Assembly: GCA_023053685.1 (NCBI GenBank)
Contig: JALIGW010000058.1
Span: 749,001-813,000, forward strand
DNA length: 64,000 nt
Origin: Diadophis punctatus similis
Taxonomy: Eukaryota > Chordata > Lepidosauria > Squamata > Dipsadidae
Direction of reading: 5' to 3'
A program made the translations under genes and the position numbers. The notes beneath the pieces are model-generated. The model searched no databases and had not been told where the DNA came from. It saw nothing but the letters and a program-made list of their open reading frames with translations. Shown piece after piece: positions 3,160 through 63,299 of this stretch (the first letter of the stretch is position 1; each line of letters opens with the position of its first letter).

Positions 3160-3232
3160 AGGGTCTTGTGCTTGACCAAGGGGTTGGACTAGAAGACCTC
3201 CAAGATCCTTTCCAACCCTGTTATTCTATGTC
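3160..3232 (+). mobile_element. CR1 LINE 3' end, right part
   Basis: It continues the CR1 copy cut at 1337 and shows the diagnostic 'ggggttggactagaagacct' word followed by 'tattct'. Confidence 0.85.
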
Positions 3233-3697
3233 CTAAATGTGCAGAGGGTCACGTTGGCTGAATGACAGCCCCTTGCAGTATCAGGTTGGCTTGGGGAGTC
3301 TCCTCCCTGGTGTCAAGATAGGATTTTCTCCTGTCAGAGGCGATCTTGGATCTTGCTTCTTTGAAGTCATTCGCATTAGAAAATAAAACCGAGATTCAAA
3401 TCTAATTAACAAAATATTTATTTCAGTACAAAAATAATAAAATAGACCCTTAATAAGCTACATCTTGTCAGCTAATGAAGTCACGTCTGCCTTCGGCAGA
3501 AATGGAGAAGAGAAGGGAAGAAATGGGAGTTGACAAACCCTGGAATGCACGCATGCGTAGTAAAACATATCACATGTCTGCTTGATCATAAATACAGGAA
3601 CCTTAGGAAAACATAGAGGTGCACAAACTGGCAATATTCACATCGTGACACCTGGCACTTAAATCTGGGTGCCATCCAGGGCTCAGTGCAAGACACT
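3233..3697. other. Unassigned stretch
   Basis: No exon or named repeat could be supported. It is AT-rich around 3360-3480. Confidence 0.4.
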
Positions 3698-4479: not shown

Positions 4480-4582
4480 TGTAAAGCAGCCCCCTCCCCT
4501 CTGGAGATTCGGATGACCCCAACCCTGTTATCAATTTACAAGGCATTGAAGATTTGGCTGTTTTCTCAGGCATTTCAGGGTA
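4480..4582 (+). mobile_element. L2 LINE fragment (ORF2 carboxy terminus)
   Basis: The translation EIRMTPTLLSIYKALKIWLF matches the closing words of the adjacent intact L2 frame (EIRTIPTLLAFRKALKTWLF). It is therefore a diverged older L2 tail next to the younger copy. Confidence 0.6.
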
Positions 4583-4589
4583 GTTCAGG

Positions 4590-28413: not shown

Positions 28414-29646
28414 TCAATCTCGAAGCTCGATCTTTCTTCTCAGCAAGACTAGGTCGGTGACTGGTCTGGTGTAGAGCTTCTTGACGGAGGTCTTTGGGTC
28501 GTGGCCTGGGTCTTGCGGCTTTGTGACTTGGACTTCTACTTGGCGAATCAGTCCATCAGTGCTGGTCTGAACTCGGTGGACAAGTCCCATTGGCCAAGAG
28601 TTTCGATGTGCGCCTTTGTCCCTCAACAGGACGAGGTCTCCTTCTTCCAGGTTCGGCTCTGGGGTATCCCATTTGCGGCGAACCTGAAGGGTAGTCAAGT
28701 ATTCTTGCTTCCAACGCTTCCAGAAGGTGTTGGCCATCAGTTGAACCTGTCTCCACTGTTGCTTATATCTGTCCTTAGGAACGAAGTTCACTTCTGGAGC
28801 TGGCCATTCGCCTGTCTTTTGTGTTAACAGAGTGGCTGGTGAAAGAATAGTCAGGTTCTCAGGGTCTGATGAGATTGGACCCAGAGGTCGAGCGTTGATG
28901 ATAGCAGCCACTTCCGCCATGAGGGTGGTAAGGACCTCATGTGTCAGCGTAGGTTCTTTCGTCATCATGGAGTCAAAGATTTTGCGGGCTATTCCGATCA
29001 TCCTTTCCCATGCTCCACCCATATGGGAAGCATGGGGAGGGTTAAATGTCCATTCGCAGCCTTGGGCCCTCAGATAGCCATCAATTGCTGGGTTGAGGCG
29101 AGTGCTTTCATTGATCTGTAGTTCTTTACAGGCTCCCACAAAGTTTGTTCCACGGTCAGATCTAAATGCTTTGACCGGGCCCCTGTGGGCTTGGAACCTT
29201 CTCAGAGCGTTAATGAAGGAGGAACTGTCCATAGATTCGATGACCTCGATGTGGACGGCTCGAATGCTGAGACATGTGAAAAGGACGGCCCAGTGTTTGT
29301 TGTGAGCTTGACCGCCTCTGGTTTTATGGGCAGCCACTAACCACGGGCCAAAGACATCTAGGCCTACATAGGTGAAGGGTGGTTCGGTACTGAGACGTTC
29401 TGGTGGCAGGTCAGCCATCAACTGATGTTGCGTCCCCCCTCTTTGTTTGCGGCAGCACAGACACCTATGTAAGACAGTTGAGATGAGCTTCCTGGCACCC
29501 ACGATCCAGAATCCGGCAGCTCGAACAACTCCCTCTGTGAAGTGGCGGCCTTGATGGTGTGCTTTTTCGTGATAGTGCTGAACCAACAGGTTTGTTACGT
29601 GGTGGCAAGTGGGAAGGATGATGGGGTGTTTTATGGTGAAGTCCAT
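28414..29646 (-). CDS. BEL/Pao integrase region
   Basis: The frame of 410 codons begins inside the pol polyprotein (its ATG is internal). It shows an HHCC zinc-binding module (HYHEKAHHQG with CLCCRKQ) at about residues 20-70. The DDE catalytic core follows, with GLDVFGP for the first Asp, RSDRGTNFVGA for the second, and GGAWERMIG for the Glu. A carboxy-terminal extension (LEEGDLVLLRD) follows and the frame ends at a stop. Integrase inserts the cDNA into the host chromosome. Upstream it is cut off from the rest of pol by a frameshift in a run of G at about 29660-29672. Confidence 0.93.
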   Translation of the reverse strand: MDFTIKHPIILPTCHHVTNLLVQHYHEKAHHQGRHFTEGVVRAAGFWIVGARKLISTVLHRCLCCRKQRGGTQHQLMADLPPERLSTEPPFTYVGLDVFGPWLVAAHKTRGGQAHNKHWAVLFTCLSIRAVHIEVIESMDSSSFINALRRFQAHRGPVKAFRSDRGTNFVGACKELQINESTRLNPAIDGYLRAQGCEWTFNPPHASHMGGAWERMIGIARKIFDSMMTKEPTLTHEVLTTLMAEVAAIINARPLGPISSDPENLTILSPATLLTQKTGEWPAPEVNFVPKDRYKQQWRQVQLMANTFWKRWKQEYLTTLQVRRKWDTPEPNLEEGDLVLLRDKGAHRNSWPMGLVHRVQTSTDGLIRQVEVQVTKPQDPGHDPKTSVKKLYTRPVTDLVLLRRKIELRD

Positions 29647-29657
29647 ATTGCCCTTGT

Positions 29658-29957
29658 TCAGACGCCCCCCCCCACTCGCAGCAAGTCCTCACTGTCAAGA
29701 TACGGGTTCAATGTCAGAAGCAGGCTGTATTTTGGAATAGGTTTCTTAGCTTTAAGGTGTTCTAACTCCGCCGAGTAGACATTGTGTTGCACAATCCGTA
29801 GGATCCCTCTCTCTGCTTGTAGGCGGCTTTCTGAATCACTAATCTGTGAAGCCATTCTGCGGCACAGAAAGCGTAGGAGCACTTCCACGCCCCGCACGAT
29901 GGATTTCCATCTAGAAAATTTCTTGAAGGTGACTGGCTCTAGTTCATGTTTAAGACG
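29658..29957 (-). pseudogene. BEL/Pao integrase amino-terminal region, broken
   Basis: It codes the stretch between RNase H and the integrase zinc module (SDSESRLQAERGIL, then PKYSLLLTLNPYLD). A TGA at about 29958 separates it from the upstream frame, and a G-run frameshift separates it from the downstream frame. Confidence 0.8.
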
Positions 29958-31121
29958 TCAGTTTCCTGTGTCCTTGACTGCTGTCGCTGAACAGGTCACA
30001 AGGGCGTTCACGTCTTTGCCCGATATAAGAGGTTTTCCGGGCACTTGAGGTCGAACATTCTCATCTTGGTCTGGGTCAACAAGGTCATAGTGTTCTGGCA
30101 TCTGTGGCGTCGAACTCTGAGAGCGGACTAGAAACTCGGGGCCCTTTAGCCAGGTGGATTCTGCCAACTGGGAGGCGGGAATCGATCGTGTAGCATGATC
30201 CGCCGGGTTCTTATCTGTTGGCACAAAACGCCATTGTTCTGGATTGGAGGACATTCTGATTCTGTCCACTCTGTTGGCTACGTAGAGATAGAAGAGTCTT
30301 GTCTGGTTGTGAATGTAGCCTAGCACCACCTTGCTATCTGTGTAGAAGGTGGTGGGTTGTAGTTCAAGGTCTATGGTTTTAGTTATCAAGTCTGCGAGCT
30401 CTACGGCTAATACGGTGCCGCAGAGCTCCAATCTTGGTACGGTGTGACCTTGTTGTGGTGCTAGCTTTGCCTTCCCCATGACGAAGCCGACGTAACTGTC
30501 ACCCTCCCCGCCGTAGACTCTGAGATATGCCACGGCGGCTATCGCCTGTGTGGATGCGTCCGAAAAGATATGCAGCTCTCCTTTCGTCGTGGTGGCGGGT
30601 GAGATGGGAACGTATGTACGGTGTACACTGACACCTTGAAGATCACTCAGGGAGGCACGCCATGTCTCCCATTTTTGTTTCTGTTCTGTCGGAAGTGGCT
30701 TGTCCCAATCCTTGGTGCTTTGGGATAGCATCCTTAGAAGGAATCTTCCTTGTATAGTTACTGGCGCAGCAAAACCTAGAGGGTCGAAAAGGCTGTTTAC
30801 TGTCGACAAAACTCCTCTTCTTGTAAAGGCGGTATTCTGAGCTGGGGCTCTGAAAGTAAAGGCGTGCTTCTTCAAGTCCCAACACAGGCCAAGACTCCGT
30901 TGGACAAGAGGGGTGTCGGCGCCAAAATCAAGGTCTTGTAAACCCTTGGCGTGGTCTTCAGGATTGAAGGCTTTTAGTACTTCTTCACTGTTGGATGCTA
31001 TTTTGTGCAGTTTGAGGTTGGCCTCCGCTAGCATCTGGCGTGTCCTTTTCAATAGGTCTATGGCTTCTGATGGTGTAGGTACGGATTTTAGACCATCGTC
31101 GACGTAGAAGTCTCGTTCCAC
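29958..31121 (-). CDS. BEL/Pao reverse transcriptase end and RNase H
   Basis: It opens with the catalytic YVDDGL word of reverse transcriptase (residues 5-11) and continues through the thumb region (SLGLCWDLKKHAF). An RNase H-like domain follows with HIFSDAST, LELCGTVLAVELADL and FYTDSKVVLGYI. These acidic residues degrade the RNA strand of the hybrid. The ATG is internal to pol. A frameshift at about 31150 separates it from the main gag-pol frame, and TGA at 29958 ends it early. Confidence 0.92.
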   Translation of the reverse strand: MERDFYVDDGLKSVPTPSEAIDLLKRTRQMLAEANLKLHKIASNSEEVLKAFNPEDHAKGLQDLDFGADTPLVQRSLGLCWDLKKHAFTFRAPAQNTAFTRRGVLSTVNSLFDPLGFAAPVTIQGRFLLRMLSQSTKDWDKPLPTEQKQKWETWRASLSDLQGVSVHRTYVPISPATTTKGELHIFSDASTQAIAAVAYLRVYGGEGDSYVGFVMGKAKLAPQQGHTVPRLELCGTVLAVELADLITKTIDLELQPTTFYTDSKVVLGYIHNQTRLFYLYVANRVDRIRMSSNPEQWRFVPTDKNPADHATRSIPASQLAESTWLKGPEFLVRSQSSTPQMPEHYDLVDPDQDENVRPQVPGKPLISGKDVNALVTCSATAVKDTGN

Positions 31122-34100
31122 GAAGCGCCTGGCATCTTGACCGTATTTGGCCTCACCTCACCTACACGAGTGGTGTGTTGGAGGCCATAATTGGCGATTG
31201 CAGGAGAGGAACCATTTCCAAAGACATGTACTCTCATTCTGTACTCTGTGACCCGTTGATCGTGCTGTTGGTCGCTGAACCACAGGAAGCGCAGGTGATT
31301 GCGGTGATCCTCCCTGACAACAAACGAGTAAAACATCTGCTGGATGTCAGCCATGAAGGCTGTGGCCTCTTTTCTGAAGCGAATAAGCACACCTAACAGG
31401 CTGTTGATAAGGTCGGGTCCTGTAAGGACTTTGTTCAAGGAGTGGTTTTGGAACTGAGAACTTGCGTCAAAGACCACTCTTATTTGCCCTGGCTTTTGTG
31501 GATGGTATACTCCAAAGAACGGCAGGTACCAACATTCTTCATCCTGTTTCAGAGGTGGGGCAGTTTCAGCATGTCCGTTTTTGATCATCTTGTCTATGAA
31601 CTCCACCAAATGAGCTTTCATTGCGGGCTTCCTGTTCATAAGTCTTTTCAGACTGAAGAGGCGAGAGATAGCTTGCTCACGGTTGTTAGGTAAGCGCTGC
31701 CTGGGTGCGCGAAAGGGCAGTGGTGCAACCCAGCTTCCACCAGCGTCTCGTTGCAGTTCCTTTTCCATGAGTTGTAGAAAGCGTTTATCTTCTATTGACA
31801 TGCTTAACTCGTTGTCTTCCTTGCTGGTCTGAAACACCGTCGCTCCTAGAACGGAGTAGTCCATTGAAACCGTGAAGTGTTCGTGGCATGGCTTCCAGTG
31901 GGATGCTCTACCATTGCTGAGGATGGTCACAGAAACATCTGCTTGGTTAGGGGCTTGCAGCCTATCGATGCAGACTGTTCCGTAGATGGCCCACCCAAGT
32001 ACAGTTCTGATGGCAATTGGTGCTCCTTTCGCACCTTTGACCGCCTCATAGGGGAAGGAGAGGTCGGGAGTGTCTGAGCCCAATAGGAGGAGGATGCTGG
32101 CTTTGGGGTCCAAGGCAGGAAAAAGGTGAGCTAAGTGCCTTAAATGAGGTATACTGCTTGCTACCTCTGGGGTCGCGATCTGCCTGCGATCATTTGGTAT
32201 GTTGTCACACTCTAGCAATGGCGGCAGTTTGAATGTTTCGCTCCCGTCTAATGGCTCTATGTAGAATCCAGTTACACTCCTCCCCGCCGTGCGCTGTGAA
32301 CCAGAGCACGTGGACATCGTGAAGTGCGTTTCTTCAGCCGGTGCATCGAAGAGGTCAAAGAATGCAGATTTGGCTAACGACCTATTGCTCTGCGAGTCCA
32401 GTATTACATACATGTTCACTGCCTTTTCTGGCCATCCCGCTGGGTAGACTTTAGCCAAGTATATGTGATGACATGAGTGAGGGAATGGTGAGCCAGCGCA
32501 GATTGACGTGCAATGGACATTGACGTTTACGGTCGTTGGTGTCTGAGTCTCCACAGAAGCGGCAGAATTCGGAGTGGGTCGTGTATTAGGGGGTGACCGT
32601 AAAGCAGGAGGTGGTCGTGGGTGATCGGTCGGTCGTGAGTTGGGAGTTGTTCGTGTGTAGGTAGTCGACCGTGGAACAGGGGTAGCCCGTGTAAAGGGAG
32701 GTGGTCGTGTATAATGAGCTGGCTGGGTTGCTGGGTCAAAGTCTAGGTGCAGGGCAGCAGGGTGCTGATTGCTCTTGCATATGTAGCATCGTATTTGCGC
32801 TGTGCATTCGTTGGCCAAGTGCTCCCTTGAATTACAACACTTGAAGCATACCCCGTAGTCTCTTATCAGAGCCTTTCTTTCATCTAAGGGCTGGCTCCGG
32901 AAATCTCTGCAATTATTCAGAGGATGTGGGAGGTTGTGGAATGGGCACTGTAGATATGTAGGTGTCGTCAGAGGGGAACGTGCAGGTCTACTTGGTGGCT
33001 GCTCGGCGTGGTACCTCGTGGAAGGAGTAAAGACCTGTGTGTCATGCACAGATACACTCGCTGTGAGCGATGGGTTCTTGGAAGAATCAAGGGTCTGGTT
33101 GTTAACTTTGTTAACTGCGTGGCAATTCTCCAAAGTGAGGAGATTAACAGGATCATTATATATAGTTGCTTGGTGGTTGATGAAGTCTGTGAGGAAGGCA
33201 AAGGAAGGGTTTTTTTGTTGGTGATTCACTTTATAAGCTGCCGCTGCTTGGATCCATTCTCTGTTTAGTTCCTTTGGAAATCTAGCAATGATGTGCTGTT
33301 GTGTGTCATAATGGTCGAGACACATAAGTCCCGGTAAGTTGGGATCCCCTTGGGATGTCCGCAACAGTTTCAGTTCATGGGCAAATTTCCACAGCCTTTT
33401 AGGGTCTTTCAAGGTGATGTTTGGGAAGTTCTTGATATGGTTTAATAATGAGGACTCTATCACTACGGATGACCCAAAACGTAGGTCGAGTGCAGCCCAG
33501 GATTCCTGAAGGGCGACGTCTGCTTTAACTAAGTTGGTGGAGTGGATATCTCTAACAATTTCAGCAGAATCAGGTCCCAGACATGCTACCATGTGTCTAA
33601 GCTGTTTGGCTGGGCGTAGCCTCTCTTCCTGGATGCCATTCATGAAATTGTCCTTCCATAGCATGTATCTTTTGCCGGGTATGTCCGAGAATTTCTCGAT
33701 CCCACTGGCTGCCAGATCCACCTTTGTCTGTCGGGATGTACATGCTATATGCCCTTTACAGAGGCATACGGGGTCCTTTGGGACTTCCACCGGGTGATGT
33801 ACAGGAGGTGATGGTAAGCTGTGCATCTCAGAAATGTCAGTGGCCTGCTTTAGGGGTGGTTGGCTCCTTCCTGTCCATCCGACGTAAAAGGGGTTCATCA
33901 GGTCTTGCCAGATGGGCGGATCTTGGCCATTGGGCTGTGTAGCAGCAGTAGAGATGGTCGGGGGGTCAGGCGCAGTCACGATGGCTGGAAGGTTGGGCGC
34001 TGTCATGATAGGCATAGTCGCGATGTCCGAAGGGTTGGGCGCAGTCGCAATAGGCACAGTCGCGATGGCCGGAGGGTTTGGCAGGAATGTCTTGGCATCG

Positions 34101-34228
34101 ACGTTGAGATTAAAGGTTGCTACTGGCGCCGGCTGAGACCCTCTAGTAGTTAAAGGGTCAGCCAGTAGTGAGCTTTGTTCATTTACATAGGTCTGTACTC
34201 GATCGTTCGGGTCCTCCTCTTCCAACAC
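31088..34228 (-). CDS. BEL/Pao gag carboxy terminus, protease and RT start
   Basis: A 1046-codon frame. Capsid-like residues come first (DIPGKRYMLWKDNF region), then two zinc knuckles (CFKCCNSREHLANEC and CYICKSNQHPAALH) at about 475-510. An aspartic protease site reading VILDSQSN follows, and the fingers of reverse transcriptase (AFMADIQQMFYSF) lie near residue 980. The protease motif has Ser-Gln-Ser after the Asp rather than Thr/Ser-Gly, a possible loss of function or a lineage variant. The frame is joined to the preceding gag frame only through a frameshift at about 34300. Confidence 0.9.
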   Translation of the reverse strand: MLEEEDPNDRVQTYVNEQSSLLADPLTTRGSQPAPVATFNLNVDAKTFLPNPPAIATVPIATAPNPSDIATMPIMTAPNLPAIVTAPDPPTISTAATQPNGQDPPIWQDLMNPFYVGWTGRSQPPLKQATDISEMHSLPSPPVHHPVEVPKDPVCLCKGHIACTSRQTKVDLAASGIEKFSDIPGKRYMLWKDNFMNGIQEERLRPAKQLRHMVACLGPDSAEIVRDIHSTNLVKADVALQESWAALDLRFGSSVVIESSLLNHIKNFPNITLKDPKRLWKFAHELKLLRTSQGDPNLPGLMCLDHYDTQQHIIARFPKELNREWIQAAAAYKVNHQQKNPSFAFLTDFINHQATIYNDPVNLLTLENCHAVNKVNNQTLDSSKNPSLTASVSVHDTQVFTPSTRYHAEQPPSRPARSPLTTPTYLQCPFHNLPHPLNNCRDFRSQPLDERKALIRDYGVCFKCCNSREHLANECTAQIRCYICKSNQHPAALHLDFDPATQPAHYTRPPPFTRATPVPRSTTYTRTTPNSRPTDHPRPPPALRSPPNTRPTPNSAASVETQTPTTVNVNVHCTSICAGSPFPHSCHHIYLAKVYPAGWPEKAVNMYVILDSQSNRSLAKSAFFDLFDAPAEETHFTMSTCSGSQRTAGRSVTGFYIEPLDGSETFKLPPLLECDNIPNDRRQIATPEVASSIPHLRHLAHLFPALDPKASILLLLGSDTPDLSFPYEAVKGAKGAPIAIRTVLGWAIYGTVCIDRLQAPNQADVSVTILSNGRASHWKPCHEHFTVSMDYSVLGATVFQTSKEDNELSMSIEDKRFLQLMEKELQRDAGGSWVAPLPFRAPRQRLPNNREQAISRLFSLKRLMNRKPAMKAHLVEFIDKMIKNGHAETAPPLKQDEECWYLPFFGVYHPQKPGQIRVVFDASSQFQNHSLNKVLTGPDLINSLLGVLIRFRKEATAFMADIQQMFYSFVVREDHRNHLRFLWFSDQQHDQRVTEYRMRVHVFGNGSSPAIANYGLQHTTRVGEVRPNTVKMPGASWNETSTSTMV

Positions 34229-34287
34229 CGTGGGATCGAATTTGGGGATATCGCTTTGGACGCTTGCCTGTAAAGCTTCGGCCCTTG

Positions 34288-35289
34288 CTATATCTTTAGC
34301 GTGGTCTCCCTTTTGCTCTGCAAACTGACAAGTTTGGCTTGTGCTCTGGCTATTTCTTCTTTTTGTAAGTTCTCTTGCTCTGTTAGCTGTAGAGCTACCT
34401 TGGCTACTGTGGCATCCACTTGTGCTCTTTTAGCTTTGTCGGCTAAACTCTCTGCTCTGGAGGCCTTGGATCTACAGCTGTGACGGGATGAGTGCCGTGA
34501 GATGCTGCTGCCCACGTGAGATCCGGCTGGCTTCGAGCAGCAGGAGGAGGCTTTCTTTGATCGATGGGCTGCCTCTGATCTGGGCTTCTCGTTCGTTGTG
34601 TCCTTGAGACGTGTGGATGTGGACTTGTCAGAAGCACGTGAAGGTGCTTCAGATGGTTTTGGTGAAGGCATGTGCGGAGGAGTAGACAGCTGGTGTGCGT
34701 CCTTCTCGCTTGTTGTGGTCTCCGTTTGAAGCTCGGTTTGAGGCAGAAGGTCGGCTTTGAAAGGGTCAAATTTGCTTAGGAGAAGCCTTTCTCGTTCTTT
34801 ATTTCTCAGCTGAAGAGCTTGTAGGTCCTTCAGAAGCCCCTCACTTTGTAACTTCTTCTGGATGCGGATATGTTTAGGCACACAGTCTTTCCATTGTAGG
34901 AACATAATTTTGTAGTCTGCATCCATCTCGGGAATGCGACTTGGGGAGAGTGCTTCTCTGTCAGCGGTGTAGTACTGTAACAATCTATTCCAGAGCGTGT
35001 TATTGTGTTTGTAGCACTTATCCCATTCCTGGTTTAGCTTAGCTCGAGCGCGCTTGGTAAGCTTTATATTCGGCCTCAAATCATAGCTTTTCTGGGGTGC
35101 TTCTGCCTCTCTTGAAATTGGAACATCAAAATCTGCGATTAAAGTGTTGTCAGACAGGTGACTCTGCGTTTCTAGCAAATCGGATGCTCCTTCCCCACTT
35201 GGGAAAGATTCCATGACATCATTGTCCATATTACTGTTGAGATCAGTTGGTGAGGTGATCTCTGCCAGTGCCCCAGCAGCCTCTGCCAT
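34288..35289 (-). CDS. BEL/Pao gag amino-terminal region
   Basis: A 333-codon frame starting at the first ATG after the leader. It is rich in charged residues with a coiled-coil-like stretch (KAKRAQVDATVAKVALQLTEQ, residues about 285-330) and Ser/Thr-rich middle. The stop at 34288 results from a frameshift, because the gag sequence plainly continues in another frame. Function inferred from position: structural polyprotein of the particle. Confidence 0.8.
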   Translation of the reverse strand: MAEAAGALAEITSPTDLNSNMDNDVMESFPSGEGASDLLETQSHLSDNTLIADFDVPISREAEAPQKSYDLRPNIKLTKRARAKLNQEWDKCYKHNNTLWNRLLQYYTADREALSPSRIPEMDADYKIMFLQWKDCVPKHIRIQKKLQSEGLLKDLQALQLRNKERERLLLSKFDPFKADLLPQTELQTETTTSEKDAHQLSTPPHMPSPKPSEAPSRASDKSTSTRLKDTTNEKPRSEAAHRSKKASSCCSKPAGSHVGSSISRHSSRHSCRSKASRAESLADKAKRAQVDATVAKVALQLTEQENLQKEEIARAQAKLVSLQSKRETTLKI

Positions 35290-35579
35290 GCTTAGAAAGA
35301 GATAAGGTAACTTTCAAAGGGAAGAAAAAAAATATTTGAGATGCAACTCACTTTCAGGTCTATAGGGGGCGCCGTCGAGGTTTAGGAATGTGGCTGCAGT
35401 TCACTTGAGCATTAGGGCTTCTTATTGGCTTTCCTTGGCTTTAGTGTATTTAATGAAATTCAGCTGATGGCCAGTAAAGGGAGGCAGCGAGCGAGTCTTA
35501 CGGTTTAGCTTATTTTAACTGAGTTTCAGGCTTTGGCCACCAGATGGCGCTTTTGCTAATTAATGCTTGGGCAGTAGGT

Positions 35580-43989: not shown

Positions 43990-45284
43990 ACATTTGTATT
44001 TGTATTTGTATTTGTATTTGTTTATTTGTCAAGCATATATGATTATAAGCAAAGTACAAACAGTAAAATATGATTGAATATATATGTAATATTACAAGTA
44101 TGAATAAGAGTAAAAGAGGTATGATTATATGGGTACATAGGACAGGAACGGTAGGCACGATTGTGCGCTTATGCACGCCCCTTACTGACCTCTTAGGAAT
44201 GGGGTGAGGTCAAATGGTAGATAATAAGAGGTTGAAGTTTTTGGGGTTTGGGGAAGAAACTACTGAGTCAGGTAAAGTGTTCCAGGTGTTGACAACTCTG
44301 TTGTTGAAGTCGAATTTTTTGCAATCAAGTCTGGAGCGGTTTACATTAAGTTTGTATCTATTGTGAGCTCGTGTATTATTACGGTTGAAGCTGAAATAGT
44401 CGTTAACGGGTAGGACATTGAGGCGGATAATTTTGTGAGCTACACTTAGGTCAGATCGAAGGCGGCGGAGTTCTAAATTTTGAAGTCCCAAAATTTCATG
44501 TCTGGTTTCATAAGGAATTCTGTTGTGAACAGAGGAATGTAATACTCTTCTTGTGAAGTATCGCTGGACATTCTCAATTGTGTTAATGTCTGATATGTGG
44601 TGTGGGTTCCAGACAGATGAGCTGTATTCAAGAATCGGTCTAGCAAATGTTTTGTATGCTCTGGTTAAGAGTACAATGTTACCAGAGAAGAAGCTGCGCA
44701 AGATTAGGTTAACCACTCTTAATGCCTTCTTTGCTATGTAGTTGCAGTGGGCTCTGGCACTTAGATCGTTAGAGATGAGTACTCCGAGGTCCTTTACTGA
44801 GTGAGGATCATCATCAAGGTCATGATCATCAAGTTTGTATTTTGTGTTTTGATTATTTTTGCCGATGTGTAAAACTGAGTATTTGTTGATAGAGATTGGT
44901 AGTTGCCACTTGTTTGACCATTCAGATATATAATCAAGGTCTTTTTGAAGGGTTGTAGTATTATCTGTGGTGTTGAATAGTTTTACGTCATCTGCGAAGA
45001 GGACGCAGTTGCTTTGTATCATATCACAAATGTCATTTATATAAAGAATGAAGAGAGTAGGTCCTAAAATGCTTCCTTGGGGAACACCGCTGTTAACAGG
45101 TACAGGGTTTGATAGAGTTGATCCTATTTTAACCACTTGTTGTCTGTTTGACAGGAATGCAGTTATCCATTTGTGTAGGGGGCCAGAGATGCCATAAGAT
45201 TTTAGTTTTAGGAGTAGTTTGTCGTGTACTACGGAGTCAAAGGCTTTACAAAAGTCTATGTAGATTGCGTCTATTGCTTTGCCC
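43990..45284 (-). mobile_element. Rex1-like LINE inserted in L1
   Basis: It carries the longest Rex1-like coding piece in the window and an (AAATAC)n tail at 43990-44020 on the minus strand. The 5' end is truncated inside the RT domain. Confidence 0.85.
44210..45136 (-). CDS. Rex1-like reverse transcriptase fragment
   Basis: An open frame of 308 codons. It begins within the RT palm (NSGVPQGSILGPTLFILYIN), carries the catalytic pair as CVLFADDVKLF at about residue 45, and continues through VKDLGVLISNDLS and the carboxy-terminal domain to a stop at the start of the 3' region. The ATG is internal. More coding sequence precedes it in the same direction (about 45140-45280: KAFDSVVHDKLL-like words), then the copy is truncated. 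Clade assignment (Rex1/Babar) is from memory and less sure than the RT call. Confidence 0.85.
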   Translation of the reverse strand: MVKIGSTLSNPVPVNSGVPQGSILGPTLFILYINDICDMIQSNCVLFADDVKLFNTTDNTTTLQKDLDYISEWSNKWQLPISINKYSVLHIGKNNQNTKYKLDDHDLDDDPHSVKDLGVLISNDLSARAHCNYIAKKALRVVNLILRSFFSGNIVLLTRAYKTFARPILEYSSSVWNPHHISDINTIENVQRYFTRRVLHSSVHNRIPYETRHEILGLQNLELRRLRSDLSVAHKIIRLNVLPVNDYFSFNRNNTRAHNRYKLNVNRSRLDCKKFDFNNRVVNTWNTLPDSVVSSPNPKNFNLLLSTI

Positions 45285-49369: not shown

Positions 49370-49790
49370 AGCACATAGAATATTAGACTTGGGAAGGACC
49401 TTGGAGGTCTTCTAGTCCAACCCCCTGCTCGAGCAGGAGATCCTATACCAGGGGTGTCCGACTTTGGAACTTTAAGACTCGTGGACTTCAGCTCCCAGAA
49501 TTACGCAGCTATCCATGCTGCCTGGGGAATTCTGGGAGTTGAAGTCCACAAGTCATGTCCACTCCTGTCCTAGACCGTTCCAGACAAATGGCTGCCCGAT
49601 CTCTTCTTAAAACCCACTACTTCTGGAGGCAACCAGTTCCACTGATTAATTGCTGTACTGTCAGGAATTCTTTCCTTAATTCCATGTTGGTTCTCTTCTG
49701 GATCAGTTTCCATCCATTGCTTCTCATCCTGCCTTCAAGCGCTTTGGAGAATAGGGGTCCATCATTGCTTAGACATCATAAGCCTGGAAA
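49370..49790 (-). mobile_element. CR1 LINE 3' region split by a palindromic MITE
   Basis: Parts 49370-49448 ('ggaggtcttctagtccaacc') and 49568-49790 ('cttctggaggcaaccagttc'). Confidence 0.83.
49449..49567. mobile_element. Palindromic hAT MITE
   Basis: CAGGGGTGTCCGACTTTGG to its complement ending ACTCCTG. Target duplication TCCTATAC/TCCTAGAC (7 of 8). Confidence 0.87.
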
Positions 49791-51934: not shown

Positions 51935-52787
51935 CCGCACCTCCGGATGACTCCTGCGGGGAAGGTTTTGGCGCCCGGGGGTCCTGCGGAGAAACGTCAG
52001 CGGGGGCCGGGCGGAGGGGCGGGGCGGGCTCCGTGGCTTCCCAAAAGCAGGACTTGAACTCCCATCTCCTGGTGATTGGCTCAAAGTCACTCAGCCAGTT
52101 TTCATGTCTAAGGAGAGGCTAAAACTCACAATTTCCTAGTTTCTAGCCAGGTTTTTACTTCTAACAATCTTGATCTTTTGTCTCTTCAAATAATATTGCA
52201 GAACTTAATTTCTTGTCATTTCTTTTTGCCCTTCAGAAAATGTTTCAAACCTTCAACAAGCCCGTTTTGTAATTCCAACACAGAAAATTATCCGGGCACT
52301 CTGCTATTTTAGTGTTTTTACATCCCTTTTAGATATGAAGACATCTTGTATGTCCAGTGTAACCTCTTTTTCCGTGTCGTTCTTGTAAGCAAATCATTTT
52401 TATATCCATGTTCATGTCTAATTTTCCATCTTATCTGGTAGAACCTGTTCCCCTTCCATGACATCATCCACACACAGCCCATCTATCAAGGCAGAGGCCG
52501 TTAAAATTAACATCTGGATCTATTGTTCAGCATGTAACATTCAACATGTCCAATGTTAAAATGTTTTGCTTCATTCTCTTATTGTAGGTTAAGTTTAAAT
52601 GTTCTCTAAATTGTAATGTTTAGTTCCTTTTAGTTCTTTCTAGTCCAATTTTTCATTTTTTCATCTTACTATTGTTTTTTTAATCAAAAGCATTTTCATG
52701 TTCTAATTTTATCTGGACCCTTAATTATCTTATTTAGCCTGTTGTTGTTTATTTTGGATTCTTTACATTGTTAAGTTTCTGATTAAA
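51935..52787. other. Unassigned stretch
   Basis: GC-rich start (51940-52035), then T-rich sequence. No exon or element could be supported. Confidence 0.4.
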
Positions 52788-53975
52788 ATGTTCATTGAAG
52801 GTATTTTCAAACTTCAAACGTCAAAGATTTCTAATAACTTAGAAGCATTTGACAAAGTAGACCACAACCTACTTCTTCATAAGCTAGAAAAAAGCGGGAT
52901 AGACAGCTACACAACCAGATGGATTAACAACTGGCTGACCAACCGTACCCAACGAGTAGTCCTCAATGGCTCTAAGTCCACATGGAGAGAAGTAAGCAGT
53001 GGCGTACCACAAGGTTCCGTCCTAGGCCCAGTACTCTTCAATATCTTTATAAATGACCTAGATGAGGGAATAGCAGGAGAACTAACCAAATTTGCAGACG
53101 ATACCAAGCTGGCGGGAGTAGCAAACACCCCAGAGGACAGACTCAAAATCCAGAGGGACCTTGACAGACTCGAACACTGGGCCCAAACCAATAAAATGAA
53201 ATTTAACACGGAGAAAAGTAAAATTCTACACCTAGGTAAGAAGAATCAAAAATACACATACAAACTGGGTGAAACCACACTCAATAGCAGCGATTGCGAG
53301 AGGGATCTTGGAGTCTTGGTAGACAGCCAACTAAATATGAGCCAGCAGTGTGCAGCAGCAGCCAAAAAGGCCAATGCAGTCCTGAGCTGCATAAATAGAG
53401 GGATACAATCAAGGACCAGAGAGGTACTAGTACCACTCTATAAAGCCTTGGTCAGACCACACCTAGAGTACTGCATCCAGTTTTGGTCACCACACTACAA
53501 AAAAGACATTGAAACCCTAGAGAAAGTGCAGAAGAGAGCAACCAGGATGATAAAGGGTCTGGAAAATAAAACATACAAAGAGCGGTTGCAGGAACTGAGC
53601 TTGGCCAGTCTGGCGAAGAGAAGCACCAGGGGTGACATGATAGCAGTGTTCCAATCCTTGAGGGGATGCCACAGAGAGGAGGGGGTCAGGATGTTCTCTA
53701 TGGAACCAGAAAGCCAAACAAGGAATAACGGATGGAAGCTGACCAAGGAGAGATTCAACCTGGAAGTGAGGAGAAACTTTCTGACGGTGAGAGCGATCAA
53801 CCAGTGGAACAGCTTGCCAGCGGAGGTTGTGAGAGCCCCAACACTTGCAACCTTCAAGAGGAGACTGGACTGCCTCTGTCTCAAATAGTGTAGGAACTCC
53901 TGCTTGAGCAGGGGGTTGGACTAGATGACCTACAAGGTCCCTTCCAACTCTAATAATAAATCTAAAAGTAGCTAA
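52788..53975 (+). mobile_element. CR1 LINE, 5'-truncated
   Basis: The longest CR1 copy here. It encodes RT from the first catalytic Asp region to the carboxy terminus and ends 'actctaataataaatctaaa'. Confidence 0.95.
52836..53888 (+). CDS. CR1 reverse transcriptase fragment, open frame
   Basis: The open frame of about 350 codons starts at [12 protein letters not shown] (first catalytic region; the frame itself opens at 52788 in flanking sequence). It continues through [20 protein letters not shown], the catalytic LTKFADDTKLAG near 53090, [13 protein letters not shown] and the CR1-specific tail ALVRPHLEYCIQFW. The amino-terminal endonuclease is missing. No internal stop is present, so this is a relatively young copy; it cannot transpose by itself. 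Confidence 0.93.
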   Translation, partial: NLEAFDKVDHNLLLHKLEKSGIDSYTTRWINNWLTNRTQRVVLNGSKSTWREVSSGVPQGSVLGPVLFNIFINDLDEGIAGELTKFADDTKLAGVANTPEDRLKIQRDLDRLEHWAQTNKMKFNTEKSKILHLGKKNQKYTYKLGETTLNSSDCERDLGVLVDSQLNMSQQCAAAAKKANAVLSCINRGIQSRTREVLVPLYKALVRPHLEYCIQFWSPHYKKDIETLEKVQKRATRMIKGLENKTYKERLQELSLASLAKRSTRGDMIAVFQSLRGCHREEGVRMFSMEPESQTRNNGWKLTKERFNLEVRRNFLTVRAINQWNSLPAEVVRAPTLATFKRRLDCLCLK

Positions 53976-54582: not shown

Positions 54583-54770
<188 letters not shown>

Positions 54771-54990
54771 GAGTTCTTATATGCCGCCCTACTCCCTGGG
54801 GACTCAGGGCGGCGTACAACATGTCAAGAACCACTAAACAATATAAAAGATTTAATAACAATTTAAAAAAGAATTTATTAAAAAAAACATACAACAACCA
54901 TACATACATGGGGGAGACCGAAGAAGTGAATTGTCTCATAACCCCACCTGCAGGAAGAGTCATGTCTTAATGGCTTTTCAGAAGGCCAGC

Positions 54991-56361
54991 AAGGTGGGGA
55001 TAATTCGGATCAATGGGGGTAGTTGGTTCCAGAGAACAGGGGCCCCTACAGAGAAGGTCCTCCCCCTAGGCTCCGCCAGTCAGCATTGTTTGGCTGACGG
55101 GACCTGGAGGAGACCCACTCTGTGGGACCTGACCGGTCGAAGGGAAGTATGAGGTAGGATGCGGTCCCGGAGATAGCCTGGTCCTAAGCCATGTAGGGCT
55201 TTAAAGATGATGATCACCACCTTGAATTGTACCCGGAGACCAATGGGCAGCCAATGCAGCTGGCAGAGTATAGGTGTTACATGGGTGTATCTTGAAACAC
55301 CCACCACAACACGCGCAGCCGCATTTTGCACCAGTTGTAGTCTCCGAATACTCTTCATGGGTAGCCCCATGTAGAGCGCATTACAGTAGTCCAATCGGGA
55401 GGTGACAAGGGCGTGAGTGACCGTGAGTAGAGCCTCCTTCTCCAAGTATGGCTGCAATTGGTGCACCAGGCGAACCTGTGCAAACGCCCCCCTAGCCACA
55501 GCTGTAAGGTGTTGGTCTAATTTTAGCTGTGGATCTAGGAGGATCCCCAAATTGCAAACTCATTCCGAGGGAGTTAATTTTTCTCCCTCAAGAACCAAGG
55601 AGGGACAGTCGACATGGTCCTTAGGAGGCAATATCCAGAGCCACTCAGTCTTGTCGGGGTTGAGTCTGAGTCTGTTTCTCCCCATCCAGATCCTAACATA
55701 GTCCAGGCATTGGCACATTACATCGACTGCCTCCCTGAATTGAGACAGGGTGGTGATGTACAGCTGGGTGTCATCAGCGTACTGTTGAAAACTCACCCCG
55801 TGTCTACGGATGATCTCCCCCAGCGGTCTCATGTAAATGTTGAACAGGATGGGCAAGAGGACCGAACCCTGAGGCACCCCACAGGTCAGGGGCCTAGGAG
55901 ACGACCTCTGTCCTCCTCCTAACACCGACTGCATCCTGTCGGCGAGATAAGAGGAGAACCACTGTAAAACGGTGCCTCCCACTCCCAACTCGCCAAGACG
56001 ATGCAGAAGGATACCATCGTCGATGGTATAGAAAGCCGCTGAGAGGTCAAGTAGCACCAGAATGGAGGAATTACCCCCATCCCGGGCTCGCCAGAGATCA
56101 TCCATCAGGACGACCAAGGCAGTTTCTGTACTGTAGCCGCGCCTGAAACCCGACTGATAGGAATCTAGATGATCTGTTTCCTCCAATAGCCGAAGAAGCT
56201 AAAAAGCTACCACCTTCTCCACAACTTTACCTATAAAAGGTAAGTTGGAGACCGGACGAAAGTTCTTCAAGTCCGCTGGATCCAGGGAAGGCTTCTTAAG
56301 GAGGGGTCTCACCACCGCAACCTTTAAAGGCTGCGGTACAGATCCCTCCCTAAAAGAAGCT
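54991..56361 (-). pseudogene. Outer L2 ORF2: reverse transcriptase part
   Basis: Two frames (56186-55560 and 55550-55080) cover [46 protein letters not shown], and the carboxy-terminal LQLVQNAAARVVVGV. A stop/frameshift at about 55555 and a TAG in 'agaagctaaaaag' near 56200 break the frame. The first catalytic region reads FYTIDDGIL, where intact copies have FDTIDHGIL, so the catalytic Asp is changed to Tyr. Confidence 0.88.
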
Positions 56362-57659: not shown

Positions 57660-57999
57660 ACCTAGTCCAGTGGTTCCCAACCTTTCTAATGCTGCGACCC
57701 CTTAATATAGTTCCTCATGTTGTGGTGACCCCCAACCATAAAATTATTTTCGTTGCTACTTCATAACTGTAATTTTGCTACTGTTATGAATCGTAATGTA
57801 AATAATATGCAGGATGTATTTTCATTGTTACAAATTGAACATAATTAAAGCATAGCGATTAATCACAAAAACAATATGTAATTATGCCAGATTAGAAATT
57901 CTCGGGCCAGTCTTTGCAAGAGCACAAGGAATATCATCTTCCACAACAAGTCTACTTCTGTATTTAGACTTGATAACCAACAAGTGTACAGCAATATTT

Positions 58000-58112
58000 C
58001 TCAATCTCAGCAACTTTTAAGGTGCCTGGACTTCAACTCCCAGAATTCAAAGCAAAGCTGGCTAGGGAATTTTGGGAGTTGAAGTCCAGGTATATTCAAG
58101 TTGTTGAGGTTG
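58000..58112. mobile_element. Palindromic hAT MITE inside larger hAT
   Basis: Facing arms 'ggacttcaactcccagaatt' and 'ttttgggagttgaagtcc'. Diverged member. Confidence 0.75.
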
Positions 58113-58409
58113 AGAAATTGTGGCCTGCAGTGTCGAAAAACTAGAAATCAGATAAGCTTCCAGCAAAGTAATCCCTGTTTAGTAGCTTTCTCCCAGGACT
58201 CCAAAGTTTCAGGAGGCAAACAGGGGGCAAAAAAACCCATGATTGGTCCAAAAACATTGCCAGAGTCCCCAAAGCCAATTTCCTCTTTTAAGCTCTTTCT
58301 TCTTAAAACAGCCCCATATTCCTTCCTCCCCCGTGGGGCCTGCTCACCCACCCTTCCCAAAACCCCTGCAAAGACAACAATTTTAATTTGCAAGGCTCTT
58401 TTTTCAACA

Positions 58410-58840
58410 GTTTCTTTCTTACTTACTTTCTTTCTTTCCCTCTCTCACTTTATTCTCTTCCTTTCTTCCTTCCTCCCAACCTTCTTCTTTCTTTCTTTCT
58501 CTTTCTTTCCCTCTCTTTCTTTCTTCTCTTCCTTCCTCCCTCCCTCCCAACCTTCCTCTTCCTTCCTTCCTTCCTTCCTTCCTTCCTTCCTTCCTTCCTT
58601 CCTTCCTTCCTTCCTTCCTTCCTTCCTTCCTTCCTTCCTTCCTCCTTCCTTCCTTCCTTCCTTTCCTTTCTTTTTCTTTCTTTCCCTCTCTTACTTTTTT
58701 CTCTTCCTTGCTTCCTTCCTCCCACCCTCCCACCTAACATTCTTCTTCTTCCTCTTCTTCCTCTCCTTCCCTTCCTTCCTCTCCTTCCTTCCATCTCTGG
58801 TCTTCCTTCCTTCCTTCTCTTTTCTCTTCTTCCCTCTCCT
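58410..58840. repeat. (TTCC)n-rich low-complexity tract
   Basis: Pure TTCC units at 58560-58640 within a 430-bp pyrimidine tract. Long Phe/Leu/Ser and Lys/Glu/Gly frames across it are artefacts. Confidence 0.95.
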
Positions 58841-59096
58841 AGCCCTCAGTACCGCAAGATCCGTGCGTGCCAAACTCTCTGGCAACCTGGACAAATAAGC
58901 GCATTGTGGTTATTCAGTCACTCCAGGAAAGCGGAGAGAGCAGGGAGGGGATCCTGCCCGCCCTGCTTACACTTGTAGCAAAGCCAGCCTGCCCCACAGA
59001 GCCGACCTTGTCCGGGGAACCAGCCAGCCAGCCAGCCCACCCTCGCCTCGCCTTCTCCAAAAGGCGCCCTCTGCTGCCAGTCATAGGGACCCCTGA

Positions 59097-59370
59097 TTAG
59101 AAACCCCCTCCCCCTGCTCTCTCTCCTCCCTCCTGGAGACCAGTAGCTGCATCGTGTTGCCGGCCGTCGTTATCTGCGGCGGAGGAAGAGCCCGGGCGGG
59201 CTTGCAAGGCGGGGCTTTGGCGGCTCGGGATCCTCCTGCCTTCCTTCCTCCTCACTCGGCCACCTCTGCGGCTCCTCTCCGCCGCGGTGGTGGCGCCTTT
59301 CCCTCCCCAAGCGCACCCGGGGGTACCCTCTCCAAAGCCGCCCATGCGCCCCGGGCGCGCCGTTGCGCAC
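59097..59370 (-). other. GC-rich flank downstream of captured exon (intron 1 remnant)
   Basis: CpG-rich sequence following the donor-like GTGCGC on the minus strand. It codes nothing kinase-like, as expected for the start of an intron. Confidence 0.5.
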
Positions 59371-59466
59371 CTTGTAAATGTCGCCGTAAGTGCCGGAGCC
59401 GATGCGCTGGATGAGCTCATAGTGCAGCCGCGGGTCCTGCAGTGAGACGACCCGCAAGGCACTTAT
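59371..59466 (-). pseudogene. Captured first exon of a MAP4K-family kinase
   Basis: 32 codons on the minus strand read ...[16 protein letters not shown] followed by SGTYGDIYK: the amino terminus of a Ste20-type germinal-centre kinase with its glycine-rich ATP loop. From memory MAP4K2 begins with the same SLQDPR word and its residues up to the homologous Lys also number 32, so this is a whole first coding exon. The codon at the expected start is ATA within 'gggaccataagtgcc', a start-codon loss if the parent had ATG. After the exon comes GTGCGC, a weak donor, and no kinase coding follows. The exon lies within the hAT at 57668-62227, away from any further kinase exon. Use of an upstream ATG (59559) would give an unrelated extension. 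I judge it a non-functional capture; MAP4K3 or MAP4K5 as source is less likely. Confidence 0.8.
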
Positions 59467-59616
59467 GGTCCCCTCGCCCAGCCGCCTTTTCAAAGATTCC
59501 CCTTTGTGGCTGGAGGACAATTCCTTCAAACTCTTTTGTTCCTCCTTCATTCTTTGCAAATTTGATTCATGAGAAGCGTCAAACTCTCTCCTTCCTTACA
59601 CCCGTTTGTCCTCTTG
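59467..59616 (-). other. Captured 5' flank of the kinase exon
   Basis: Sequence upstream of the exon, presumably 5' untranslated or promoter DNA of the source gene. No TATA box. Confidence 0.4.
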
Positions 59617-61200
59617 GGTTTTATTTATTTATTTATTTATTTATTTATTTTGGTTTTCTTATATGCCGCCCAACTCCCGAGGGACTCAGGGTGGTGTACA
59701 GCAAAAATACAAAAGCACCAACAAATAAACATTGATTAAAAGCAAATACAAAAATTAAAAATTCATTATTAAAAAAACATCCGTCGGCCAGACATACCCG
59801 GGGGAGAGCTCAGATGGATTAGTCTCTACCCCCTGCCTGCAGGAAAAGCCATGTCTTGACAGCTTTTCGGAAGGCCAGCAGGGTGGGGATGGTTCGGGTC
59901 TCTGGGGGAAGTTGGTTCCAGAGCGCGGGGCCCACCACAGAGAAGGCCCTCCCACTAGGGCCCGCCAGCCGGCATTGCTTGGCTGACGGGACCTGGAGGA
60001 GGCCAACTCTGTGGGCCCTAACCGGTCGAAGGGAAGTATGAGGCAGAATGTGGTCCCGGAGATAGCCTGGTCCTAAGCCATGAAGGGCTTTAAAGATGAT
60101 GATCAACACCTTGAATTGTACCCGGAGACCGATGGGCAACCAATGCAGCTGGCGGAGTAAAGGTGTCACGTGGGTGTACCTTGGCACACCCACCACAGCA
60201 CGTGCAGCCGCATTTTGCACCAACTGAAGTCTCCGGATACTCTTCAAGGGTAGCCCCATGTAGAGCGCGTTGCAATAGTCCAAACGGGAGGTGACAAGGG
60301 CATGAGTGACCGTGAGTAGAGCCTCCTTCTCCAAGTATGGCCGCAACTGGTGCACCAGGCAGACCTGTGCAAAGGCCCCTCTAGCCACAGCGGTAAGATG
60401 ATGCTCCAATTTTAGCTGTGGGTCTAGGAAAACCCCCAAGTTGCGGACCTGATCCGAGGGAGTCAGTTTCGCTCCCTCGAGAACCAAGGAGGGACAGTTG
60501 TCATAGTCCTTAGGAGGCAATATCCAAAGCCACTCAGTCTTGTCGGGGTTGAGTCTGAGTCTGTTCCTCCCCATCCAGATCCTAACGTCGTCCAGGCACC
60601 GGCACATTACATCAACTGCCACACTGAATTGAGACGGGGTGGTGATGTACAGCTGGCTGTCATCAGCAACACACCCCGTGTCTGCGGATGATCTCCCCCA
60701 GAGGTTTCATGTAAATGTTAAACAGGATGGGCGAGAGGACTGACCCCTGAGGCACCCCCATGACAGGGGCCTAGGGGACGATCTCTGCCCTCCTGTTAAC
60801 ACCGACTGCATCCTGTTGGCGAGATAAGAGGAGAACCACTGCAAGACGGTGCCTCCCACTCCCAACTCGCCGAGATGATGCAGAAGGATACCATGGTCGA
60901 TGGTATTGAAAGCCACTGAGAGGTCAAGTAGCACCAGGATGGAGGAGTTCCCCCCATCCCGGGCTCGCCAGAGATCATCCATCAGAGCGACCAAGGCAGT
61001 TTCTGTACTGTAGCCGCGCCTGAAGCCCGACTGATAGGCGTCTAGATGATCTGTGTCCTCCAGTAGCCGCAGAAGCTGAGTAGCCACCACCTTCTCCACA
61101 ACTTTGCCTATAAAAGGCAAGTTGGAGACCGGACGATAGTTCTTTAAGTCAGCTGGATCCAGGGAAGGCTTCTTCAGGAGGGGTCTCACCACCGCACCGC
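59617..61200 (-). mobile_element. L2 LINE nested inside the hAT
   Basis: The 3' tail (TTTA)n is at 59617-59650 on the plus strand and the 3' motif at 59660-59700. The 5' end is truncated within RT near 'ccagggaaggcttcttcagg'. GGGTTT occurs at both edges and may be the target duplication. Confidence 0.92.
59819..61192 (-). pseudogene. Nested L2 reverse transcriptase, broken
   Basis: Frames 61192-60707 (VRPLLKKPSLDPADLKNYRP to the PQGS region) and 60622-59819 (DDVRIWMGRNRLRLNPDKTE to the carboxy terminus) are interrupted around 60660. The segment holding the catalytic YADD is partly deleted there. The first catalytic word reads FNTIDHGIL, with Asn for the catalytic Asp. Confidence 0.87.
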
Positions 61201-61349
61201 AGGGTTTATATGTCTTCTGCTTTAAGAACTATATTTTATATTTTATTAAATCCTCCCGCCCAGACACTCCCTGCTACCCCCTCCAGCATCCCCGTCTCCT
61301 CGCTTGCCAAGTCCCACATCTCCGACTACAGCCGGGACTCGCAAACCGG

Positions 61350-61955
61350 GGCCGGCTGGGGCTCACAGCAGCAATTTATTCCCACTGGTGTCAAAGAGAA
61401 AGGGAGTCACGGGGGGAACGGCCAGCCAACAACCACTTAAGTTTAACAGCGCATGACGGTGGGAAGGAGGACAGCCGGGTCAGGCTCATCTGTCTGCCCT
61501 CTCGCCCTCGGCTGGCGCGGAGACCCAGCGAAGAAAGAGGCAAACAGGGAGGGAGGGAAGAGAGAGACTGAGAGATATTAGCACAGGGCTAGCCTGATCA
61601 TACGGAGCAGGGCGGCGGCGATGGACCATGCTCCGGCACCACCTCCTTCTCCAGTTCCCTCCGGCTTAGCTCCTCCTGCCCCCGGCGGTGGCGCCCTCAG
61701 CACCGAGGCTGTATGATCAGGCTAGCCCTGCACTAATATCTCTTAGTCTCTGTCTTCCCTCCCTCCGTTTGCCTCTTTGTTCACTGGGTCTCCGTGCCAG
61801 CCGAGGGCGAGAGGGCAGACAGATAAGCCCAACCCAGCTGTCCTCCTTCCCGCCATTATGCGCTGTTAAACTTAAGTGGTCGTTGGCTGGCCGTTCCCTC
61901 CCGTGACTCCCTTTCCCTTCGACACCAGTGGGAAGAAACTGCCGCTGTGAGCTGG
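61350..61955. repeat. Large fold-back repeat inside the hAT
   Basis: The arm at 61360-61603 ('cactggtgtcaaagagaaag', 'gggctagcctgatcatacgg') is the imperfect complement of 61706-61940 ('ctgtatgatcaggctagccc', 'cccttcgacaccagtggg'). The spacer of about 100 bp is GC-rich. Confidence 0.9.
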
Positions 61956-62235
61956 AGACAGGGGCGGCCACAGATGTCTTAAGCACCGCCTTGTACTCTC
62001 CAGCGTGCAATCTTGCGATGCCCCGCCCCTTAGCTCGGCCACCAGGCATCACAAGCGCCTCTCACCGAATGGCACCTCTCCCAACCAATCGGAGGGCTCG
62101 GGCGAATTGAGCTGATATGGCCAGGCTTGTGGCAGTGGGGGGAGGGAGCTGAGGATTCCAGGGTGACCCCTGGGAAATGGTCGTTCGACCCCCAAAGGGG
62201 TCCCGACCCCCAGGTTGGGAACCACTGACCTAGTC

Positions 62236-63098
62236 GGTCCCGCCTCCCTGCGGGGGAGGAGTGGGGCTGTGAAATCCAACCTCAATAGGAAATGATCTGA
62301 CCACAACAACAGGGTGGTGACTATATCCCCTACCTTCAGATCATCTCTCCACTGCCCCGAAAGAAACACTAGGTCAAGCGTGTGGCCTCCCTCATGAGTC
62401 GGATCCTGGATTACTTGGGTCAGGTCCATGGTTGTCATGGAATTCATGAACTCCTGAACTGCACCAGAGGTTTCGCCAGCCGAAGGCAGGTTAAGGTCCC
62501 CCAGCACCATAAGCCTGGGGAACTCCACCGCCAGGCTAGGTATCACCTCAAGCAGCTCAGGCAGGGCCTTAGTAACATAGCTGGGAAGCAGGTACACTAA
62601 CAGAAGGCCCACCTGAACCCCTAAGTCCAACTTCAGAAGGAGCATCTCACACCCAACAATCTCCGGGGCAGGGATCCTACGAGGATGCAGATTCCGGTGC
62701 GTTATAATAGCCACTCCTCCTCCCCTTCCCTGGGGTCGTGAATGATGCTGCACTGAGAAACCGTCTGGGCTTATCTCAGAGAGGGCTACTCCCCCCTCCT
62801 GGCCCAGCCAGGTCTCAGTTATACATACCAGGTCCGCCCCCTCATCAGTGATTAAATCACGTATCAGGGGGGCTTTGTTGACAATCAACCTGGCATTCAG
62901 CAGCATCATCCTGAGCCCAGGGCCCTGAAAACCCTGGTTGCCAGGTACTCGGGTTGAGCAAGATGGAACCACATTGGAGGGGCTGGAACAAGGGATCGCT
63001 TGTGAACAGCGAGGTCTTATTCCCCGAGAGCCCCCCACCCCTCTGCTCCCGCCATACCTACCTCTTCCCATCATGACCGGAATATTCCAGCTCTCCAC
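62236..63098 (-). CDS. Outer L2 ORF2: endonuclease domain
   Basis: The frame opens at ATG 63098 and stays open to the hAT junction. The apurinic/apyrimidinic endonuclease fold is visible: MLLNARLIVNK (substrate-binding Asn), VCITETWL (catalytic Glu), LMVLGDLNLP (Asp/Asn pair), HTLDLVFLSG and WSDHFLLRLDF (Ser-Asp-His). The enzyme nicks target DNA to prime reverse transcription. The frame runs into hAT sequence after AGPTR and ends inside the transposon at 62049, so the protein is truncated by the insertion. Confidence 0.92.
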
Positions 63099-63299
63099 CC
63101 CCCCGAGATCCCCTCCCCCTCCCCCCTGGTCCTCCTTGCTCCCTGCAGGCCATCCATACCATCCACACTGAGCTGGGGGTCGAAATCAAGGCCCCCTCCG
63201 CTTCTGTTTCCACATTCAGCAGAGGGGGTCGGAATCCCAGCGCCCGACTTCTTCATTTCTTCACAATCATTCAAGCTACTCATACACCCATACCAATCG

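Follow-up and report, generated by a model that had tools for sequence, protein, structure and literature searches.

The stretch analysed here, referred to as the window, comprises 64,000 nucleotides of the Diadophis punctatus similis genome (assembly GCA_023053685.1, contig JALIGW010000058.1, positions 749,001 to 813,000). At 57668-62227 it contains a hAT transposon that carries DNA of a MAP4K2-type kinase gene and lies, with inverted ends and a duplication, inside a long interspersed nuclear element (LINE). The terminal inverted repeats (TIRs) of this copy are perfect and occupy 57668-57683 (plus strand) and 62212-62227 (minus strand). The element is flanked by a perfect 8-bp target site duplication, ACCTAGTC, at 57660-57667 and 62228-62235. 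When the whole window was scanned for such ends (at most 3 mismatches between ends separated by 100-6000 bp, and no more than 1 mismatch between the 8-bp flanks), the only pair found was that at 57668/62227. Deletion of 57668-62235 in silico gave a 411-codon minus-strand LINE frame that is continuous over the junction. The part of the interrupted LINE to the right of the element, at 62236-63185 (minus strand), encodes an endonuclease domain (PF03372, E 7e-11). A preliminary description, made from the sequence alone, had reported perfect 15-bp inverted ends, a perfect 8-bp duplication and a LINE frame restored by removal of the element; these observations hold, except that the ends measure 16 bp. 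We characterised the target LINE by its Pfam domains, 'L2' being the label of that description.

The left end of the transposon (57668-57886, plus strand) is followed by a stub of a hAT transposase C-terminus (57887-57984, minus strand), and the right end lies at 62162-62227 (minus strand). These parts correspond to positions 1-222, 224-321 and 3249-3309 of the family consensus described below, and align with 94%, 98% and 92% identity, respectively, to L036, a 3558-bp hAT element of the same genome that is flanked by the duplication CTTTAGTT and contains a stop-to-stop frame of 613 codons. The 98-bp stub is the end of the L036 transposase on the minus strand; between the stub and the right end, where L036 has its remainder, the kinase element carries cargo. 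We obtained L036 through a search with a 66-residue query in which the best 150 of 2782 candidates were scored and at least 17 matched at least 57 residues at 72-80%. Its product matches the hAT dimerisation domain Dimer_Tnp_hAT (PF05699) at 21.6 bits, only just above the cut-off of 21.4. Transposase-like open frames of hAT type were seen at C112:255767714 (L036 itself), C112:244755863 and C364:79463025, with 613, 613 and 641 residues. With 8-bp duplications, short TIRs and a transposase in a related element, the kinase element is a member of the hAT superfamily. Duplications of the form nnnTAnnn are typical of Buster/Charlie-like hAT elements. SPIN elements, also of the hAT superfamily, have undergone horizontal transfer among vertebrates including squamates. 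The ends, duplication type and transposase described here may resemble those of SPIN. No SPIN element with gene cargo appeared among the papers listed on these elements.

The cargo begins with a reversed piece of intron 1 of the MAP4K2-type gene (57983-59134, minus strand; donor offsets 3409 to 1671). It includes a CTTC/TTTC microsatellite at 58411-58817, and lacks 306 bp of the consensus (1427-1732) at a gap between 59072 and 59073. A piece from upstream of exon 1 follows in inverted orientation (59135-59308, plus strand; donor offsets about 1200-1396), for which consensus 1817-1968 was aligned and the start at 59135 was extended by eye. A further block, 59300-59486 (minus strand; donor 1638 to 1451), comprises exon 1, the adjoining beginning of intron 1 and the 20 bp that precede the start codon. 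In this block, the 96-bp coding part of exon 1 (59371-59466, minus strand) has ATA in place of its ATG and an intact splice donor GT. The preliminary description had placed a MAP4K-like first exon between short hAT parts; the exon is indeed there, and the ends and stub on its two sides match L036. The kinase-derived DNA is not a single exon, as had been supposed, but extends over ~1.5 kb of this copy (57983-59486) and includes intron 1. Among solved structures, the 27-residue exon peptide matched MAP4K1 best and MAP4K3 next, with no MAP4K2 chain among the best 60 matches. A hairpin repeat occurs in the window at 57996-58118, about 8972-9071, 19577-19668, 20363-20422 and 49468-49548; its copy in the captured intron has a counterpart in the donor gene.

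Beyond the exon, 59487-59624 (minus strand) is further cargo that forms one open frame with it. Next comes a LINE copy with an RVT_1 domain (59625-61201, minus strand), which shares 86.7% identity with LINE sequence elsewhere in the window, at about 54743-56319. This nested LINE is absent at that place in copies of the element such as L012, L014, L015 and L016, and is a later insertion into the window copy of an element already formed. More cargo (61202-61360) leads to a palindrome of ~0.6 kb with a left arm at 61361-61603, a loop (61604-61713, plus strand) in which an ATG opens a frame of 31 codons (MDHAPAPPP..) and a right arm at 61714-61952. GC-rich cargo at 61953-62161 extends to the right end. 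No source was found for the stretches at 59487-59624, 61202-61360 and 61953-62161.

A search of the genome with a human MAP4K2 query located exon 1 of the donor gene at 7377076-7377174 of contig C13 (76% to the query); later parts of the protein were matched in order on the same contig at 7405133, 7423701 and 7431862 (61-69%). The window lies on a different contig, C373. This contig is absent among the 56 listed matches to the query, a weak negative since the search scored just 55 of 1623 candidates and does not list even the exon of the window itself. Consensus 320-1794 aligns to donor intron 1, 1817-1968 aligns inversely to the piece upstream of donor exon 1, and 1960-2146 aligns to exon 1 and its edges. 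The captured DNA thus amounts to ~1.96 kb, mostly intron 1, together with exon 1, 20 bp upstream of it and the inverted upstream piece. At the left breakpoint, transposon and donor have a 2-bp overlap, AG, in common. A blastn search of 5.1 kb around donor exon 1 found no element end and no transposase stub.

To find other copies, the first 533 bases of the element were used as a genome query. The best 40 of 1912 candidates were scored, and all 40, including the window's, matched at 98-100%. We read ~8 kb at each of 20 of the other 39 loci (L009-L028), and five extra loci obtained from pattern matches, two with a pattern from the palindrome loop (L031, L032) and three with a pattern from exon 1 (L033-L035). 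Because L009-L028 were picked by closeness to the window's left end, including the junction, their divergence is biased low and their junction counts high. At 12 of the 26 element loci, window copy included, both ends and a perfect 8-bp duplication were present; the 12 duplications are all distinct and have TA at positions 4-5 without exception. Duplications with 2 mismatches were found at two further loci, L013 and L027. A second consensus of 3314 bp was built with columns from five full-length copies and letters from ten sequences, which diverge from it by 2.7-5.1%. An apparent breakpoint at 1595/1598 of the first consensus was discarded as a gap-column artefact, the intron being continuous there in the second.

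A 39-mer across the junction of transposase stub and MAP4K2 DNA had 1652 matches in the genome with at most 3 mismatches (836 forward, 816 reverse), and its reversed control had none. Half of this 39-mer is donor sequence running into the hairpin repeat, and reading of whole loci therefore matters. The junction region was present in 22 of 23 sequences (window, L009-L028, L031 and L032; the exception is L032), a count that is biased since 21 of the 23 were picked by, or are, the window's left end. The same 22 hold MAP4K2 intron beyond the hairpin, and in 12 of the 23 at least 70% of the exon is present. Among the five loci not picked by the left end, the junction is traversed in L031, L033, L034 and L035 and absent in L032. 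An exon-1 34-mer gave 214 matches with at most 3 mismatches (113 forward, 101 reverse; reversed control 0), one of which is the gene itself. All three exon-pattern loci, read irrespective of the left end, lie inside element copies: one is full-length with the duplication GGTTAAAG, one has its right end broken up and one is without its left end. Shorter lineages that lack inner parts were also found (L031, 1647 bp; L032, an 803-bp element), each with its own duplication. The 306-bp deletion of the window copy recurs in three of nine other aligned copies, in one of them ending 2 bases later. Other small elements were noticed at these loci, all in reverse complement: those at L024 4572-4933 (362 bp) and L032 460-709 (250 bp) share this type of end and are flanked by matching 8-bp duplications, and an 860-bp element at L009 5730-6589 has related ends, the duplication TGTTAGGC and a GC-rich filler, and is possibly a second gene capture.

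These counts bear on two explanations that involve no capture. Given the GC-rich and microsatellite content of the element, its structure could be an assembly artefact or a chimeric contig; the same structure recurs at many loci on many contigs, and we rejected this explanation, which the copy number makes next to impossible. Alternatively, separate repeats and a duplicated gene piece could have piled up in nested fashion without capture or joint transposition, as the LINE nested in the window copy and the hairpin repeat within the captured intron might suggest. Against this, the left junction is identical in copies at different sites (in a count biased by the left-end sampling), the composite has a perfect duplication at 12/26 loci, and copies L012, L014, L015 and L016 skip over the LINE. 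A common junction with different duplications across the family led us to reject a nested pile-up as scarcely credible.

Comparison of the copies with the donor points to a common origin. All 12 copies that cover the start codon have ATA instead of the donor ATG. The intron stretch has 13 differences from the donor that are common to more than 80% of copies (22 copies), and the exon block has 7 (11 copies). Since the copies have these differences in common, all of them apparently derive from one capture. In 11 copies, divergence of the exon was.063,.037 and.068 at the three codon positions compared to.063 in the flanks, and CpG sites diverged at.145 versus.031. A stop lies inside the exon in one of the 11, and the splice donor GT is intact in 12 of 13 copies. 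With the ATG lost and no clear constraint, the captured exon is most likely a decaying passenger.

Taken with the donor alignment, these results make it very probable that a non-autonomous hAT transposon captured MAP4K2-type DNA and then multiplied. The preliminary description had proposed a hAT transposon that picked up a host kinase exon, and the ends, the donor alignment and the same structure at other loci bear this out. The kinase segment aligns to a true MAP4K gene, the MAP4K2-type locus, whose exon 1 is on C13, followed in order by three later matches, and not on the window's contig. The same ends with kinase DNA recur elsewhere, each with its own duplication, and the 213 further exon matches argue that the GC-rich segment is no artefact of assembly. 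The scale of the family, the intron-1 cargo, the later arrival of the nested LINE and the additional cargo had been overlooked. Host DNA may have been captured by template switching during replication or gap repair, a route suggested by the 2-bp AG overlap at the left breakpoint, the local inversion and the failure to find hAT sequence beside the donor. Transposase from related elements such as L036, if active, would then have mobilised the composite, and internal deletions would have given rise to the shorter lineages; the window copy has one such deletion in common with others.

Several observations weigh against capture as we describe it. At 12 of the 26 element loci there is no end pair with matching flanks, and L014, L018, L019, L025 and L028 carry both ends without a matching 8 bp. 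The slower second codon position (.037) is compatible with weak past constraint on the exon. Assignment of the gene to the MAP4K2 type comes from a single human MAP4K2 query and is tentative as to the paralogue. No donor was found for consensus 2147-3248 by loop pattern, peptide and Pfam searches. Finally, donor intron 1 carries, 18 bp beyond the breakpoint (donor offset 3428, in L029 and L030 joined), a decamer identical to bases 1-10 of the transposon ends, for which template switching gives no explanation. This decamer would fit a different origin by end bypass, in which hAT sequences beside or within intron 1 moved with the intervening gene DNA as one large transposon. We consider this quite unlikely, as the blastn search around the donor exon gave neither ends nor stub and the left breakpoint lies inside the transposase tail, not at a transposon end.

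Consensus 2147-3248 (~1.1 kb) holds the in-phase frame joined to the exon, the palindrome with its ATG-led loop and the GC-rich stretch, and may represent one or more further captures. A 36-mer from the loop had 423 genome matches with at most 1 mismatch; of the two loci read from this pattern, L031 has MAP4K2 intron cargo and L032 has none. The best 150 of 230 candidates for the cargo peptide were scored and were 92-100% identical, two with an internal stop; among such matches a donor is indistinguishable from copies and the best-ranked are biased. Across the 12 sequences in which this stretch is present, the underlying DNA averages 98.6% identity to the consensus. Given this mean identity and the ranking bias, we read no selection into the conservation of the peptide. 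Matches to PCF11 (E 0.024, below the Pfam cut-off) and to a catenin (E 0.62, weak) were taken as chance.

The retained splice donor raises the possibility of an exon trap, in which a captured promoter and the exon-1 splice donor would produce chimeric transcripts at genic insertions, as described for HelibatN3 with NUBPL (PMC4778049, in its available text). Besides this precedent, the intact GT in most copies and an open frame that enters the exon from the adjoining cargo, in both the consensus and the window copy, would favour such an activity. Against it, the donor sequence stops 20 bp before the ATG, the upstream piece is inverted and the ATG is ATA; a promoter of the captured gene in working orientation before the splice donor was not found. 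Judged from these sequence features, an exon trap of this kind is rather doubtful. We regard as similarly tentative the idea that the element supplies first exons, and perhaps promoters, at scattered places in the genome, through the MAP4K2-type exon and the palindromic cargo, which has an ATG of its own and may have a splice donor.

Elsewhere in the window, RVT_1 frames lie at 4553-6889, 44213-45283, 52728-53885 and 55563-56198. Retroelement-like frames occupy 28414-35313 on the minus strand, with a Pao peptidase (PF05380) at 29961-31157, DUF5641 and an integrase match below the cut-off at 28417-29688; another of these frames, of 1113 residues, has no Pfam match. Tandem repeats comprise 17 perfect copies of a 7-bp unit at 18831-18949 and 2.7 copies of a 42-bp unit at 33968-34082. 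A search of the window against Rfam at gathering thresholds and a tRNA scan gave no matches.

Pack-TIRs are already known in animals. According to the available text of Tan et al. 2021 (PMC8277862), 370 cases were found in 100 reference genomes, four of them multicopy. These include Pack-hAT-N8_XT, with the CAPSL 5' UTR, in the western clawed frog (three insertions shown), another frog case with five copies, and a few Ssk-FB4 copies in flies. As in Pack-hAT-N8_XT, so far as it is described there, hAT ends of the kinase element flank a host gene piece, each copy has its own duplication, and the donor is known and unlinked to the transposon. The kinase element has transposon sequence on both sides of the host DNA, a parental gene on C13 with no element end or stub found in the 5.1 kb around its exon 1, save a 10-bp match, and multiple copies that arose through transposition with different duplications. 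In the features tested, the kinase family works like a Pack-hAT. Compared to the Pack-TIRs in that text, it stands out by its 1652 junction matches and a captured piece of ~2 kb in which exon 1 and intron 1 are accompanied by an inversion, and a screen such as that of PMC8277862 could apparently miss a family this abundant. From the available text of PMC8903248, plant Pack-TYPE elements are likewise non-autonomous DNA transposons with coding DNA, but their hosts are plants. HelibatN3 in Myotis carries the NUBPL promoter and first codons, and PMC4778049, in its available text, puts promoter pieces of 15 genes at 4,690 copies. Both it and the kinase element carry a gene start and splice donor at high copy number in a vertebrate. 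Unlike the kinase element, HelibatN3 is, from what is available of its description, a Helitron without inverted ends that carries the promoter itself. Nor is HelibatN3 known to make an 8-bp duplication. The available part of a review of snake repeats (PMC8303610) lists hAT-Charlie among the dominant transposons; neither 'gene capture' nor 'captur' appears in it. No MAP4K2 capture or high-copy Pack-hAT in a reptile was recognised in a literature search that missed most subscription journals; novelty is therefore unproven, and from the sources available it is the scale of the kinase family that appears new.

In the available text of PMC8277862, animal captures by cut-and-paste transposons are mostly single-copy, and the multicopy ones have few copies each. 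The kinase family indicates that such a capture can grow, in a vertebrate-type genome, into a large repeat family. It records capture, deletion lineages and decay, and offers many places to look for new first exons. If the element does act as a source of first exons, host genes would have gained new ones from some of the 213 exon matches that are not the gene itself, by way of the kept splice donor and the fused upstream frame, and the family would be a vertebrate cut-and-paste counterpart of HelibatN3.

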